DNA of 46,331 bases from a virus: positions 1 through 46,331 of IMG/VR virus record IMGVR_UViG_3300047491_000094. One strand, given 5' to 3'. Positions 33,481 to 40,367 of the stretch are shown here, one piece after another; within the stretch, counting starts at the first letter, position 1, and each line of letters begins with the position of its first letter. Under the pieces are notes generated by a model. That model had not been told where the DNA came from, did no database searches, and saw only the letters and a list, made by a program, of their open reading frames with translations. The position numbers were made by a program, and so were the translations under genes.

Positions 33481-33682
33481 TAACTAAGTCAGAGCCGTTT
33501 GGTTTGTTGGAGTAGTATCCTTCTCCATTCCATTGACAGGGGTACCAGACATCAACGGCTCCATCGTAGATTGCTCCATTGATATATCGTCCATCAAAGA
33601 CTTCATAAATTCTAACTCCCTCTCCATTGCGGGTTTTAACTGGCTTGGTAAATCTAATGCGTGGATTGTTCTCTGTGCCCAT
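33470..33682 (-). CDS. Small conserved phage protein overlapping the exonuclease gene
   Basis: A 70-residue protein starting at ATG 33682 behind GGAG. TKPVKTRNGEGVRIYEVFDG and AIYDGAVDVWYPCQWNGEG form a beta-rich pattern (K-x-R-x-G-x-x-V-R-I ... W-x-P-x-x-W) common in small early phage proteins. Almost all of it (199 bases) lies within the 3' end of the exonuclease gene in another frame. Confidence 0.7.
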   Translation of the reverse strand: MGTENNPRIRFTKPVKTRNGEGVRIYEVFDGRYINGAIYDGAVDVWYPCQWNGEGYYSNKPNGSDLVNVG

Positions 33683-34329
33683 GTTTCTCCTTTGTTTTGC
33701 ATAATCCATAAACATTGTGCGTTCATGATAAAACGTTCATTGTCCCACTCGTATAGGGCAAAGACTTGATTGAGCATGTCAATCTCATCTGTTAAGTGGT
33801 CAATGATCTTTGCAGCTTTAACAGGACCAATCTTATCTACACCAAAAATATTATCTGACCTATCACCAATAAGCATTTGCTTATAGAAGGTACGCAAACC
33901 AGTAAGCTGATCTACATGGGTGTATTCTAATTTGTTCCAGTTAAAGTGCACACCGGGAATCATGAGCAGATCTTTGTCGAGAGAACATACAACAGTTTCA
34001 TCAGTTTGTTCAATACCCAACAGATCATCCGCTTCACAACCTTGACTAACTTCTGCATTCCATTCTTTAATGAGATATTCACGACAGTCCTGTAAATAAC
34101 ATGGTGGTTCTTTGTCTTTGCGATTAGCTTTATATTCTGTGTTAATAGCTTTGCGAAAGTTACCACGACCTGTTAGATATGCTTTGTACTCTTTGCTTTC
34201 AGTAGCTTCTAGAATCTGTCGCATCAACACATCAACACGATAGATAGCTACATCTACAGGGTCATAGTCTTGTACTGTAGCAGCGCATCTAAACGCTACT
34301 AGGTCAGCATCAATAAGAGCAATTGCCAT
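33484..34329 (-). CDS. 5'-3' exonuclease (T7 gp6 / flap endonuclease family)
   Basis: A 281-residue protein that removes RNA primers and degrades host DNA. Motifs: IALIDADLVAFRCAA (first Asp), EADDLLGIEQTDETVV, CSLDKDLLMIPG, and IGDRSDNIFGVDKIGPVKAA (the H3TH-like region of flap nucleases). The catalytic core ends near residue 210. The last 66 residues are Met/Ser/Thr-rich, without family match, and coincide with an overlapping gene. RBS GAG before the ATG. Confidence 0.87.
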   Translation of the reverse strand: MAIALIDADLVAFRCAATVQDYDPVDVAIYRVDVLMRQILEATESKEYKAYLTGRGNFRKAINTEYKANRKDKEPPCYLQDCREYLIKEWNAEVSQGCEADDLLGIEQTDETVVCSLDKDLLMIPGVHFNWNKLEYTHVDQLTGLRTFYKQMLIGDRSDNIFGVDKIGPVKAAKIIDHLTDEIDMLNQVFALYEWDNERFIMNAQCLWIMQNKGETWAQRTIHALDLPSQLKPAMERELEFMKSLMDDISMEQSTMEPLMSGTPVNGMEKDTTPTNQTALT

Positions 34330-35638: not shown

Positions 35639-35667
35639 AGTATAGCTTAGAGTTTTACTTCTGTCAA
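35639..35667 (-). promoter_or_regulatory. Consensus sigma-70 promoter for the SSB gene
   Basis: On the minus strand TTGACA (35667-35662), 17 bases, TATACT (35644-35639). The -35 is perfect and the -10 matches five of six. The -35 lies inside the last codons of the polymerase gene. Transcription would start near 35632, upstream of the SSB ATG at 35583. Confidence 0.8.
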
Positions 35668-36381
35668 CTCTAGCATGTTAGGTCCAACAGATACTTCACC
35701 GAGCATAGGAATATTCCAAGGAGTGTTGTATGCTTGAGACACTAACTGTGGTAAATCTCTAAAGACTTGATCAAACATATTGACAACCTCATCTACTTCG
35801 TGTTCCGGTACGTCAGCAACAATAGAATCGTGTACAGTGGAAATAAGCTTACCAGTAAGGCTAGCACGTTTCCATCGTTGCCGTACTGCCACCCTAGCCA
35901 CAGCCATAACATCGGCACCACAACCTTGATTGGGGTAGTTAGTAATGTCAGGTTCGGAGTAGACAAGTTCGCCTCGCTTGTTCATACGTGGATTAAACTC
36001 ATACAGTCTACCAAACGGTGACATAATCTTACCAGTTGTAGTAGCTTGTTTGATGTACCGCATGTGAGTTAGATAGATTTGTTTGTACTTAGCATAGTAA
36101 TTGTCGATGACGTTTTGCCAGAAGTCTTGTGACTTACTTACTGGCATAAAGTCTGGGTCTTTGCTATACGCAAATGCTGAACCACGATAGATCCAACGGA
36201 ATAGAAAGACTTTAGCAATTAGTCGAGAGGGTAGATTAAAAGCTTCTTGATTGGCTTTGTGAATGTCATGCTTAGTAGGATCATTAATAACCCCATGCCA
36301 CTCTTCAATACCTACAGGATCTTGTGATAAGAATAAGTAAGTACACCACTCTAGACTTTTTGCATCGACGTTAACAATCAT
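35647..36381 (-). CDS. DNA polymerase I family, C-terminal catalytic part (fingers/palm)
   Basis: A 244-residue protein starting within the stop of the 61-residue gene (ATGA). It carries motif A (VNVDAKSLEW, D6), motif B (PSRLIAKVFLFRWIYRG, R53, K57, Y65) and motif C (TVHDSIVAD, H184, D185), i.e. both metal-binding aspartates of family A polymerases. It lacks everything before motif A, which is encoded 180 bases upstream in a separate gene. The motif B end reads Y-R-G rather than Y-G. It must act with the N-terminal part to be a full polymerase. Confidence 0.85.
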   Translation of the reverse strand: MIVNVDAKSLEWCTYLFLSQDPVGIEEWHGVINDPTKHDIHKANQEAFNLPSRLIAKVFLFRWIYRGSAFAYSKDPDFMPVSKSQDFWQNVIDNYYAKYKQIYLTHMRYIKQATTTGKIMSPFGRLYEFNPRMNKRGELVYSEPDITNYPNQGCGADVMAVARVAVRQRWKRASLTGKLISTVHDSIVADVPEHEVDEVVNMFDQVFRDLPQLVSQAYNTPWNIPMLGEVSVGPNMLELTEVKL

Positions 36382-36563
36382 TTTTGTACATAATCCTGCA
36401 TAATTTTAAATGCTTCGTGATTAGCATCTTCCATGTTAGTAGCTTCTAGTAATACAGTCTCACCATTGTCGTGATCTTTAACTAGAAAGTACTGACCCAT
36501 TTGAGCAACATAAAAAATACTGTACTCTAAATACTCTTTAATATCTTCATCTGTAATAGCCAT
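36378..36563 (-). CDS. 61-residue protein inserted between the two polymerase genes
   Basis: MAITDEDIKEYLEYSIFYVA begins in the TAATG overlap with the upstream polymerase gene and ends in ATGA overlap with the downstream one. The rest is YFLVKDHDNGETVLLEATNM and a C-terminal helix. It is not similar to a homing endonuclease, intein or intron-encoded protein. The function is unknown; a linker or clamp role for the split polymerase is possible but speculative. Confidence 0.7.
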   Translation of the reverse strand: MAITDEDIKEYLEYSIFYVAQMGQYFLVKDHDNGETVLLEATNMEDANHEAFKIMQDYVQK

Positions 36564-37744
36564 TAGTACCTCGATATACAAAAACGTTTAGCTTCTTTAG
36601 GTAAGTTTTGTTGGTTAGGTTTAGTGCTGCTTAGTCTACCAGTAGCAGCAACACATTGATTAAGGTTACTGTGTAGCATATTTGGCTTCCAGTTATGTTT
36701 ACTAATGACATTTGGTAGTCCGTCTAAATACGTTGATTTTAATTTCATAAGCTTGGAACGTTCTAACAACCATGTTATCATTCCTTTGCTTGTTTTGTTT
36801 GTTTTGAGTGACAACAACGTAGATTCGTCTGTGCTGTAGTAACCTTCTTTTTTTAGTTCTGATCCTTTGAGTGGTTCAACAAGTCGCGGTAGGACATGCT
36901 GTTTAGGAACAATCTTATAGCGTGTTTGACCCACTTTCTGACCTGTCTTATAAACTCCGATAGGTAGTCTAGTATCTTCTGTAATAGTTCCACCATATAA
37001 GAGACAAGAAATATGATCATTAGAATCAAAGTTAATGGGAACGTTGCCAATAAACTCAATAAGTTTACGTTCAAGTTCTCTGACCTGCGCATCCAAGGAT
37101 TGCGATTGTTGTAGTGAAGCTTCTGTGTCATAGCATATACCATTAAACTCCATATCTTGTAGTACAAGCAAGTCGTTACAGTGTAGTCTGAACAGTCTAA
37201 ACTGTCCGTGATACTCATCAGCAAACTTAGTTACTTGGTTTTTAAACACAGCGTAAGTAAGTTCAACGTCTTGTGCACCGTACTCAGCTAAAACGTCAAA
37301 AGGAATAGCGTCAGTGTCAATACCTTGCGCCCAATACTCAGCTACACGATCTAATTTATGACCGACCATATAGTTATCACAGGTAGTATTGAGATCGGGA
37401 TAACGCCAAGTCTGAGCCGAGAAGATATACTCGGCAAGCTGGCAGTCCCAGACACAGTTAGTTTGGTAGCCTAGTTCACGTTGTAGCCAGTTAAGATCGA
37501 ACTTTAAATTAAAACCAACAACACAAGAAGCCCTGTTAAGAATAGGAAGGGCGTGTGCAAAGTTATCCTTTGTTAATACTATAGGTGGATTGTCTGCTTC
37601 TTTAAGTTGGATTGTTACTAACTTATTGTTAAGATCAAATGCATTACCTTTGTTGGATGTAGTACACTCAACGTCAACGACCACAGGATTCTGGCAAAGC
37701 TTCGCCAAAATCGGTGTACTGCCAATCGGTGATGTTGTACTCAT
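36563..37744 (-). CDS. DNA polymerase I family, N-terminal part (3'-5' exonuclease and thumb)
   Basis: A 393-residue protein starting at ATG 37744, 7 bases after AAGGAG. Exonuclease motifs: VVVDVECTTS (D24, E26), VGFNLKFDLNW (N79, D83) and EYGAQDVELTY (Y155, D159). Then FNGICYDTEASL and, at the very end, ATGRLSSTKPNQQNLP, the family's T-G-R-L-S-S motif just before motif A. It stops at RFCISRY. In intact relatives motif A follows within about ten residues. That sequence is found in the next-but-one gene. Confidence 0.87.
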   Translation of the reverse strand: MSTTSPIGSTPILAKLCQNPVVVDVECTTSNKGNAFDLNNKLVTIQLKEADNPPIVLTKDNFAHALPILNRASCVVGFNLKFDLNWLQRELGYQTNCVWDCQLAEYIFSAQTWRYPDLNTTCDNYMVGHKLDRVAEYWAQGIDTDAIPFDVLAEYGAQDVELTYAVFKNQVTKFADEYHGQFRLFRLHCNDLLVLQDMEFNGICYDTEASLQQSQSLDAQVRELERKLIEFIGNVPINFDSNDHISCLLYGGTITEDTRLPIGVYKTGQKVGQTRYKIVPKQHVLPRLVEPLKGSELKKEGYYSTDESTLLSLKTNKTSKGMITWLLERSKLMKLKSTYLDGLPNVISKHNWKPNMLHSNLNQCVAATGRLSSTKPNQQNLPKEAKRFCISRY

Positions 37745-38234: not shown

Positions 38235-38382
38235 TTTTAAACCATTTCCAACCAAAAATTAAACGCATAAAAAATAAATGTATAACATTTGGTTTTGTTT
38301 TAGCACCAACATGAAATCCATTCCATAGTGCTATATATCCAGCAGGTTTAGGAACATCTATACACATAACTAGTTGGTTCAT
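38224..38382 (-). CDS. Small protein with hydrophobic C-terminus
   Basis: A 52-residue protein: MNQLVMCIDVPKPAGYIALW then HLFFMRLIFGWKWFKSVS. Its ATG overlaps the helicase stop by 4 bases (ATGA). The C-terminal hydrophobic/aromatic stretch could be a membrane anchor or amphipathic helix. Not recognised. Confidence 0.6.
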   Translation of the reverse strand: MNQLVMCIDVPKPAGYIALWNGFHVGAKTKPNVIHLFFMRLIFGWKWFKSVS

Positions 38383-39625
38383 TCTATGTCCTCGTATCGT
38401 GCAATGTCAGGACGTATACGTACTGTGCTACGACCATGCCGTTGTTCAGGGTCAGAGTCTACATCACCTGCTAGTTTGTTTTTGCTAAGATGTAAGTGAC
38501 GCATGTACTCTTCGCTAACATCGTGGGTCTTACCAATACCTAGAATCCAGTCAGCTTCCGCTGCTTTGGAAGTCTTGGCATTAGCTACGTTCTCCATAGT
38601 TAACCAGCGTTTACCTTCACCGCTTGCATCTGCTTGGCATACTGCAATAGCAGGACAATACTCTTTGGCAATCTCACGACCCCAGACATAGATAAGACCA
38701 AGACGTAGATCTTCACGATCACCTTCAAAGCCTTTGATCTTGTCGATCTGATCAAAGATAACCATGCTAGGTTTGTGTTCACGACATAGTTGTTCTACTT
38801 GTTTACGATGTATAGCAGCAGAGTCAAAGATCTTGATGTACTCACCACCTAGATCACGAAACTTTTGTTGGTTGCATGAAACGTCAGAGAACAGTTGTGC
38901 CATGTCCACGCCTAGCATGGCTTGGTACAATCTTAGCTGGACTTTGTTTCCTTGCTCTTCGTTGTTAAACCAGAGAATGGGACCAACATACTCTTCATCA
39001 TTGTTTGCCACTCTTGCATGAAGTTGCTGTGCAAAGTTTGATACTTCGCTAACAAGGAAAGTAGTTTTGCCTGTTTCTGGTCTGGCGAAAATGAAGCCGA
39101 AATCACCTCGGCGTAGAGATCCGAGCATTCGGTTAAGAGTTTGTAAACGCCAGCGTAGTCCGGGAGTTTTGATTGAATCATTGTATAGTTCCTCAAGGTT
39201 ATCGGTTACGAACAGATCATCGGATGGTTTGCCGTTGGTTATATCTTGTTCGGATACTGCACGTGCTAGGGTAAGAAGGTCAGCAAATTCTTTGCGACCC
39301 TCGCTAACTTCTAAAGATGCTAACGCTAGTTCGTAAGCTTTCTGTCGTTGCTCAACTTCTGTAACAACATCAGCAAGAACAATAGAGTCAGTGTCGATAG
39401 ACGATAGTTCAGATAGTAGTTCAGTTAGTACAGGTTTGTCTTTCTCAAGACAGTTAGTTAAAACAAAAAGACTATACTCATCTACAGTAAGATCTTTTTT
39501 AGTTTATCTAAGTATGTAAATAGTATATTAAGTTCTTTATTATCTTTATATACTGTCTTTATACTATCACTATACTTAGTATATGTATTATAGTTTAACA
39601 GGAATTTCAGGAGTTGTAAAGACAT
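38379..39625 (-). CDS. Replicative DNA helicase, read through a predicted -1 frameshift
   Basis: The helicase frame is open upstream to a stop at 39504-39506 but has no ATG, GTG or TTG before Met 39128, which sits just ahead of Walker A. A second frame starts at ATG 39625 (AAGGA 9 bases upstream, MSLQLLKFLLNYNTYTKYSD) and stops at TAG 39482. The two join at A-AAA-AAG (39500-39494): a -1 slip gives KLKK-DLTVDEYSL and a 415-residue protein. Walker A is ARPETGKTTF (K about 187), Walker B region MVIFDQIDKI, with LSKNKLAGD near the end, as in RecA-like DnaB/gp4 helicases. The N-terminal helical domain suits this family. Confidence 0.82.
39471..39500 (-). promoter_or_regulatory. Slippery heptamer and downstream hairpin in the helicase gene
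   Basis: A-AAA-AAG (39500-39494) in the phase CTA-AAA-AAG allows two tRNALys to slip back one base. After a 5-base spacer, ACTGTA (39488-39483) pairs with TATAGT (39476-39471), six pairs with one G-T. The hairpin is weak. A second stem, TGTCTT-GAGA-AAGACA, lies at 39452-39437. The zero-frame stop TAG is inside the first hairpin. Confidence 0.65.
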
Positions 39626-40367
39626 TCGTTAGTTCCTTGATTGTTGCATCGTCATATTCTTTTGGGTCGAGTTCAGTATACACAGTTGACACGGGCAATC
39701 CAATGCTTCTCGCCATTTGTGAGTACTTGACCACCTTGGTTTTCATATCGTCATCTAGCCATATAATAATATTATCAAACATTTTCTTATAACGCAAGAG
39801 TTTTGCTAAAGAAATATGTGAACCAAACAGTGGACTTGCACACACATTTGTGTTATGTGATACCTTAATAGCAGAAATAATATCTTCTGTCAAGACACAA
39901 GTACGACTACGCTTGTTACCAACCACGTGAAGAAACTCATGTAGTTTACCTTGACTGAACCACTTAGCTTTATTGGGTAGTTCACCAAGGTATCTGCCTT
40001 GCCAACCTAACAAACCATCGGGAGATAAGTAAGGGAAGATCAAGCGTTGTTGGTATTCTGACCACAGTAAAGTGTTGTTAGTTATATCCTGCTGCGTTAG
40101 TGTATACTTCCTGAGCCATTCCAAGGCACGTGGTGGGAGTTGTTCATCAACGTCTGATGGAAGTACAATTGCTTTGCCAGTTGAGATATGATCAACTCTG
40201 CTCCCTGCCTGTAACCTTTGAACTCCTGATGCAGTCTCCAAATAACCACAGCGAAAGCAGTACTTGTGACCATCAGAATACACAGCAAGATTATCTCCAT
40301 CTCTGTCATTACCAATCCTCCGACAATTCGGACAAGCCTCGTGACCAAGGCAGTGTGACGTACTCAT
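39588..40367 (-). CDS. DNA primase with zinc ribbon and TOPRIM domain
   Basis: A 259-residue protein. The N-terminal zinc ribbon is HEACPNCRRIG (C-x-x-C) with HKYCFRCGYLE. The TOPRIM part has VLTEDIISAIKVS (the Glu) and NIIIWLDDDMKTK (D-D-D) followed by DPKEYDDA. It corresponds to the primase half of T7 gp4, here separate from the helicase gene that starts 38 bases inside its 3' end. It makes RNA primers at the fork. Confidence 0.85.
   Translation of the reverse strand: MSTSHCLGHEACPNCRRIGNDRDGDNLAVYSDGHKYCFRCGYLETASGVQRLQAGSRVDHISTGKAIVLPSDVDEQLPPRALEWLRKYTLTQQDITNNTLLWSEYQQRLIFPYLSPDGLLGWQGRYLGELPNKAKWFSQGKLHEFLHVVGNKRSRTCVLTEDIISAIKVSHNTNVCASPLFGSHISLAKLLRYKKMFDNIIIWLDDDMKTKVVKYSQMARSIGLPVSTVYTELDPKEYDDATIKELTNVFTTPEIPVKL

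Follow-up and report, generated by a model that had tools for sequence, protein, structure and literature searches.

The virus record IMGVR_UViG_3300047491_000094 (positions 1 to 46,331; hereafter the window, meaning the whole 46,331-nucleotide (nt) stretch analysed) encodes its family A DNA polymerase as two genes with a small third gene between them. We put the probability that this is a replicative polymerase permanently encoded as two subunits at about 0.87. An earlier note, made from the letters of the window, had proposed a two-chain or possibly three-chain enzyme. The two-chain form agrees with a split shared by 207 loci, correlated divergence of the two halves, retained catalytic residues, low ratios of nonsynonymous to synonymous substitution (dN/dS) and the lack of a common frame that could fuse them. 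Sequence comparison shows a split with a single deep origin at one site, conserved and co-varying halves, and no intron; the two chains presumably assemble into an active polymerase.

The two half genes and their break

All three genes lie on the minus strand. The N-half (36563..37744, 393 residues) holds the 3'-5' exonuclease, the thumb and the first part of the palm, and the C-half (35647..36381, 244 residues) holds the palm from motif A, the fingers with motif B, and motif C. The slot between them is filled by a 61-residue gene, P0002 (36378..36563). Pfam detects the exonuclease domain PF01612 in the N-half (E 1.2e-11) and, behind it, PF00476 over profile positions 41-135 of 381; the C-half matches PF00476 over positions 192-378 of 381. 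A PF00476 search of the whole record found no further gene besides the two halves.

In a 6-row alignment the N-half residues D24, E26, N79, D83, Y155 and D159 are invariant, and the ExoI-III motifs of a DEDDy exonuclease are present, as the earlier note had said of the upstream gene. Its description of the downstream gene, starting shortly before motif A and containing motifs A, B and C, was equally accurate: the residues are D6/E11 (motif A), R53/K57 (motif B) and H184-D185 (motif C). Across the two halves the TGRLSS element and motifs A (D..E), B (R..K..Y) and C (HD) are all present. The N-half was said to end just after TGRLSS, which is slightly loose; the element is near the end, but 20 more residues follow (..TKPNQQNLPKEAKRFCISRY, then the stop), the last of them reading ..AKRFCISRY. 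The C-half begins MIVNVDAKSLEW. Compared with the intact homologues of HMO-2011 (SRFDGGKVMEADF) and phiKT (SRFGDDGQIIQSDF), about 3-4 turn residues are absent at the break, in keeping with the small loss that the earlier note had described.

The window's polymerase is not a single polypeptide, being encoded by two genes in different frames. The overlaps of the small gene with both neighbours that the earlier note had described were confirmed: the N-half is joined to it by TAATG, and its stop and the C-half start share ATGA (36378..36381, minus strand). Motif A (D6-E11, DAKSLE; 36349..36366, minus strand) is uninterrupted, with the frame intact through it. At the first junction, the N-half end TGTATATCGAGGTACTAATG (36561..36580, minus strand) has an AGG Arg codon at the place expected for the Shine-Dalgarno sequence of the next ATG, and this codon may double as the ribosome-binding site of the next gene. 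For the last N-half Arg codon (window 36569-36571), 59 of 173 loci use AGG, whereas AGG makes up 15% of the Arg codons in the rest of the gene.

The split in related phages

Searches with either half (tblastn) returned the same five nearest phage records, namely MW202697, MEP401, MEP402, Alcaligenes phage QDWS535 and MW202796, and the halves are separate genes in all five. The insert is a homologue of R67-type dihydrofolate reductase in MW202697 (E 2.5e-17 to PDB 1vie) and a 77-residue open reading frame (ORF) in MEP401 and MEP402; QDWS535 has no insert and its half genes overlap, and MW202796 has 3.6 kilobases (kb) between the halves, with a cytosine methyltransferase and other genes. The R67, or type II, homologue lies at L001:4849-5055 (MW202697), in an environmental phage.

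Scans of viral contigs with an alignment of each half (80 loci per half) gave a first set in which both halves are separate ORFs in all 114 non-redundant loci. A larger set, which includes the first, was built from two scans led by divergent members and one scan of bacterial genomes. It holds 312 loci: 209 non-redundant split loci, 77 redundant ones, 11 without an N-half, 14 with an N-half match below 60 bits, and one intact locus, the outgroup L180 in a bacterial genome. The window's break is common to 207 of the 209 split loci, the other two being L006 (ICP2) and L007 (VP41s3). In the main type, the N-half closes with (S/T)R(Y/F) and a short tail, and the initial Met of the C-half lies five residues ahead of the Asp of motif A; the window breaks between SRY and the motif A strand, as in the MEP401 type. 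All 163 loci whose match begins at C-half profile position 1 have an ATG there. From the N-half stop to the C-half, spacing runs from -17 nt to 3.6 kb. Across the 209 loci it is up to 14 nt in 33, 15-100 nt in 19, 101-400 nt in 106, 401-1000 nt in 45 and more than 1000 nt in 6, and the 33 loci without an insert remain two genes.

Residue conservation was assessed in 105 loci with near-complete halves. The ExoI D and E are present in 100 of them (the other five being gaps) and the ExoII and ExoIII residues in all 105. The motif A D is found in 98 (five gaps, one T, one M) and the E in 102 (two gaps, one D); these exceptions fall largely on loci with coding gaps. Motif B R and K are kept in 103 (two gaps), and motif C H and D in 104 each. 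The distance matrices of the N- and C-halves correlate (mirror-tree r 0.90, n = 105), the highest of 1000 permutations being 0.21. Median dN/dS in close, unscarred pairs was 0.142 for the N-half (460 pairs) and 0.099 for the C-half (1182 pairs), and both halves are under purifying selection across relatives.

On a tree of 67 rows, with five open forks and long branches for SIO1, CW02 and VpV262, the 54 split rows form one clade (95/100), and the intact polymerases of HMO-2011, CRP-212, VpV262, phiKT, C56, JSF7, SIO1 and CW02 fall outside it. ICP2-type phages break about 12 residues upstream of the main break (..QNISN and a stop, then MSDIKRC..) and group with intact Autographiviridae (100/98), which therefore indicates a second, independent fission. 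In the tree, L006 and L007 duplicate, or nearly duplicate, rows that carry the label SPLIT2. The slot of the ICP2 group holds nothing, an 86-residue ORF or an HNH-like gene; in ICP2_2013_A_Haiti and Saratov-12 a 9-nt spacer (GGAATTACT) separates the halves. In GenBank the polymerase of ICP2 is written as a join on either side of gp51, which is an HNH-like ORF (E 0.011; L006:6203-6652). The C-gene there has its own ATG, and relatives without the HNH-like ORF are still two genes, which casts doubt on the spliced annotation.

The break site was placed on a predicted fold using the relative L048, in which the two half genes are in one frame with a single TAG between them. The TAG was read as glycine, and this chain entered an alignment with 31 more rows, all read through in frame 0; one MAFFT run that mixed separate halves with the fused chain misplaced the N-halves and was discarded. 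The L048 read-through fold scored 89.1 for predicted local distance difference (pLDDT) and 0.86 for predicted template modelling (pTM). Foldseek matched it to Bst, Klenow and apicoplast (apPol) polymerases, mostly at template modelling (TM) scores of 0.73-0.77 by query length, so the combined halves have a Klenow-like fold in this model. The gene appears to be cut at a turn, because the L048 stop residue, 392, sits in the predicted turn between strands 387-388 and 393-399. Each chain beside the break would thus form half of a hairpin, whose second strand leads into the catalytic Asp, and two free chains presumably close the hairpin across the break.

The slot and other readings of the locus

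The slot appears to be a site where unrelated small genes can land and are tolerated. In the 114 loci of the first set it holds no insert (17 loci), a recurrent small family (50) or something else (47). The recurrent family is small, acidic and helical-looking, with the motif EEAxxxHTxxEFxxxIxxxGxxxVLxxL.. (example L002:5158-5391), and is confined to the slot within the loci examined. Of 16 members, never more than one matched any given Pfam or PHROG family (best E 0.0046 and 0.014), and the one member searched against phage records matched only MEP401 and MEP402. In ten loci (L135, L138, L141-L143, L152, L154-L156 and L158) the slot protein is hydrophobic over an N-terminal stretch and has the conserved tail DPILPRALPPLVEGGEVYFE.

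Because the EEAxxxHTxxEF family sits only in the slot, some slot proteins may serve the polymerase, and this family may be a true polymerase partner or accessory subunit in the phages that have it. Together with the overlap of the P0002 gene with both half genes, this is what speaks for an enzyme of three chains, in which P0002 would be a third subunit or, as the earlier note had suggested, a linker or clamp. However, the family is absent from the window, and P0002 as one of its members was rejected (hhalign probability 0.2). P0002 had no relatives in 50,697 phage records (tblastn, E<=1), and a search of IMG/VR led to one place, its own contig: 3300042261_000128 (locus L008) carries the same genes as the window, with 100% identity over both halves. 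PHROG gave no match and Pfam a single sub-threshold one (E 0.068). The single-sequence fold (pLDDT 77) is predicted to be alpha-beta-beta-beta-alpha, and a fold search gave no match at E<=0.001, with HicA among the weak matches. The linker or clamp role is not supported, because no P0002 relative was found beyond its own contig, and the enzyme does without an insert in the 33 loci mentioned above, including the close relatives L009, L013 and L020; two other near relatives, L012 and L014, have unrelated ORFs there. We therefore consider a three-chain enzyme improbable. P0002 is probably one of the unrelated small genes landing in the slot and not part of the enzyme.

The insert could also be a self-splicing intron or its remnant, with a single polymerase made, a possibility raised for MEP401 by its authors (PMC10580990). 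Group I introns are known from DNA polymerase genes of phages, as in SPO1, and L081 has a group I match (E 3.7e-9; L081:5669-5989) just before motif B of its C-half. The other three loci with a break before motif B (L093, L225 and L247) have a spacer with the same HNH type. In the window, however, the insert is wholly coding, no group I intron core (RF00028) was found, and a permissive Rfam search gave one chance match on the other strand; the same Rfam search found the SPO1 polymerase intron at E 7e-4, which served as a positive control together with the L081 match. At the Rfam gathering threshold, 7 + 11 loci yielded tRNAs only, but since that threshold misses the real SPO1 intron (25.6 bits against a threshold of 50), only the E-value searches were relied on. 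Pfam scans of the three window proteins showed no intein or Hint domain at the break, and Pfam and PHROG scans no homing endonuclease between the halves. The earlier observation that no intron or intein element is visible thus stands for the window, but homing endonucleases do lie in the slot of 16 of 209 relatives. Splicing also fits poorly with the loci split without an insert, with halves 3.6 kb apart in L005 and with the uniform ATG start of the C-half, and we regard it as highly improbable.

Fusion of the halves at the split by a frameshift or by stop read-through finds some footing in L009 and L048, where the N-half stop and C-half start share a frame. These are 2 of the 17 loci among the 114 with a gap of at most 14 nt. 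Across the 17, the frame of the C-half relative to the N-half stop varies 9/6/2, so no common frameshift or read-through joins the halves. In the window the two halves do not share a frame and are separated by a third gene. Just as scarcely credible is that both halves are relics in decay and that the phage is replicated by a different polymerase. Nothing in the window speaks for this except that the record may be incomplete, and against it stand the presence of only two PF00476 places in the record, the catalytic residues conserved in 105 loci and the low dN/dS.

On the two-subunit reading, the gene broke once, in the ancestor of a large clade of Zobellviridae-like phages, at the beta-hairpin turn before motif A. 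One chain carries the proofreading exonuclease and thumb and the other motif A, the fingers and motif C. Each is translated separately from its own start to its own stop, with coupling by overlaps in the window, and the chains would assemble non-covalently with the hairpin strands paired across the break, neither half being a polymerase alone. We somewhat favour a homing endonuclease cassette as the origin of the split, inserted with its own copy of the C-gene start. Such an arrangement is still seen in relatives such as L177, where the DNA flanking the insert is identical to that of L020 bar one edge base. The L177 insert consists, in order, of an HNH gene fused to the first codons of the old C-gene, a ribosome-site-like stretch, a synonymously changed copy of those codons and a 5-nt misfit.

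Several points weigh against this account. Just 90 of the 163 C-half start codons have a sequence resembling a Shine-Dalgarno site ahead of them. Because the loci were retrieved through their resemblance to split members, the lack of intact ones is valid for the sampled neighbourhood only. The window's own dS to its nearest relatives is saturated, and there is therefore no dN/dS ratio for its halves. The fold models the relative L048 as one chain rather than the two chains of the window itself, and the endonuclease origin is drawn from present-day relatives rather than from the founding event. If the two-subunit reading is right, an active site built from two chains across a phage clade amounts to a natural protein complementation experiment and offers a ready-made split polymerase for biochemistry.

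Motif A gaps and comparison with known systems

In 18 of the 209 split loci a break interrupts the C-gene within motif A, at the site that is uninterrupted in the window. The D-x4-E is in frame in 187 and the gene is broken before motif B in 4; other breaks elsewhere in the C-gene occur only in L115 and L179. Each motif A break is an insertion of 1-7 nt, and in 17 cases it falls at D-A-x-x-L^E^W; in L001 the zero frame reads DAKSS and a stop, and the shifted frame gives LEW. In-frame gaps of 6 nt occur in L179, L196, L211, L240, L250, L306 and L316, and also in L345 and L384, found by a pattern scan (119 stretches reported, 87 examined, 6 encoding this polymerase, of which 3 were new). All nine carry TAG or TAA, and 5 of the 9 have Leu codons on both sides (e.g. 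CTT TAG CTT, CTG TAA CTG). The L080 gap (+1) reads CTT TGA G, the gap of L213 is +4, and that of L384 (+6) reads CTT TAG CTT. CTT is the last zero-frame codon ahead of the gap in 11 of 14 L^E-type cases, compared with 46 of 185 loci that lack a gap (p 9e-5, uncorrected for kinship).

These loci might be dead genes or assembly faults, and L250, L300, L306, L345 and L364 all come from one metagenome (3300020045). Downstream of the gap the sequence remains constrained: of 17 cases computed, the 11 with a defined dS have dN/dS of 0.05-0.27, values that come from pairs with an ungapped relative and so average both lineages. Endonuclease genes were found in 16 of 209 spacers (five queries, phmmer E<=1e-4, ORFs of at least 60 codons), of which nine accompany a motif A gap, four a motif B break and three neither. 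A motif A gap is present in 9 of the 193 loci without a spacer endonuclease (Fisher p 2e-7 for the association, uncorrected). The gaps are tied to the homing endonucleases of the slot, as in T4 39/mobA/60, and would imply recoding of the second half. The gap loci were rejected as intron-bearing, because 1-7 nt is too short for an intron; a search of six of them yielded tRNAs only and no intron (Rfam E<=0.1).

We give even odds to the gaps being programmed recoding inside the catalytic motif of the relatives' polymerase, a family A counterpart of T4 39/mobA/60. Cassettes would enter the slot and supply a recoded start of the second gene. They would also leave, or depend on, a gap of 1-7 nt that lies between the two motif A carboxylates and usually has a stop codon immediately following a Leu (CTT) codon. 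Such a gap would protect against cleavage by the endonuclease, and for any polymerase to be made the ribosome would need to shift by +1 at CUU UGA or UCU UGA, or hop by +4 or +6 between matching Leu codons. For CUU UGA, RF2 (prfB) frameshifting offers a model. If the peptidyl-tRNA re-paired immediately ahead of the Glu codon, normal spacing would be regained, but poor landing-codon fit in L179, L250, L306, L316 and L177 speaks against one common hop. A search of open-licence papers found no motif A coding gaps of these phages in print, which is a weak negative. If real, the gaps would make phage life with endonuclease-protecting interruptions in essential genes testable outside T4.

The polymerase of the window sits in a replication module with a separate 5'-3' exonuclease (33484..34329; phrog_107, E 2.5e-57), part of a DnaB-like replicative helicase upstream of the polymerase (38379..39128) and a DNA primase (39588..40367; phrog_47, E 1.2e-24), all on the minus strand. 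As far as a comparison of replication modules goes, it resembles that of Zobellviridae phages.

The closest known system is that of the Methylophilales phages MEP401 and MEP402 (Zobellviridae). In 2023 these and most group I relatives were described as having a split polymerase with a small ORF separating its halves, and an intron was considered possible (PMC10580990). They share with the window two ORFs (exonuclease with the N-part of PF00476; C-part of PF00476), a small ORF between them and the same break, at 38% identity for the C-halves and 43% for the N-halves, but have a different small ORF in the slot. Since this split type is already known, the window is a further member of it. What we add is the fixity of the split across a clade, a second fission, the exclusion of an intron, which answers the "perhaps an intron" reading of MEP401 and MEP402, the dispensable slot and the motif A gaps of relatives. 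The Vibrio phage ICP2 group (Icepovirus) likewise has two genes and a variable slot, but its upstream break is that of an independent fission. SPO1 also has an insertion in a phage family A polymerase gene, but it is annotated as one spliced gene with a group I intron, and the window has no intron signal. Aeromonas phage 25 has a split 43A/43B polymerase that co-purifies with activity, and the split nrdA of Aeh1 is functional (PMC2988022). Those are replication enzymes split by or near a homing endonuclease that reassemble in active form; they differ in being a family B polymerase or a reductase, and the window has no endonuclease between its pieces. Finally, T4 gene 39 is split by an endonuclease, and the 50-nt bypassed gap of gene 60 may have protected against cleavage (PMC5009743). 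Relatives of the window share with T4 39/mobA/60 an endonuclease between the pieces and a coding gap early in the second one, but their gaps are 1-7 nt rather than 50 and lie inside a catalytic motif, whereas the window has neither endonuclease nor gap.

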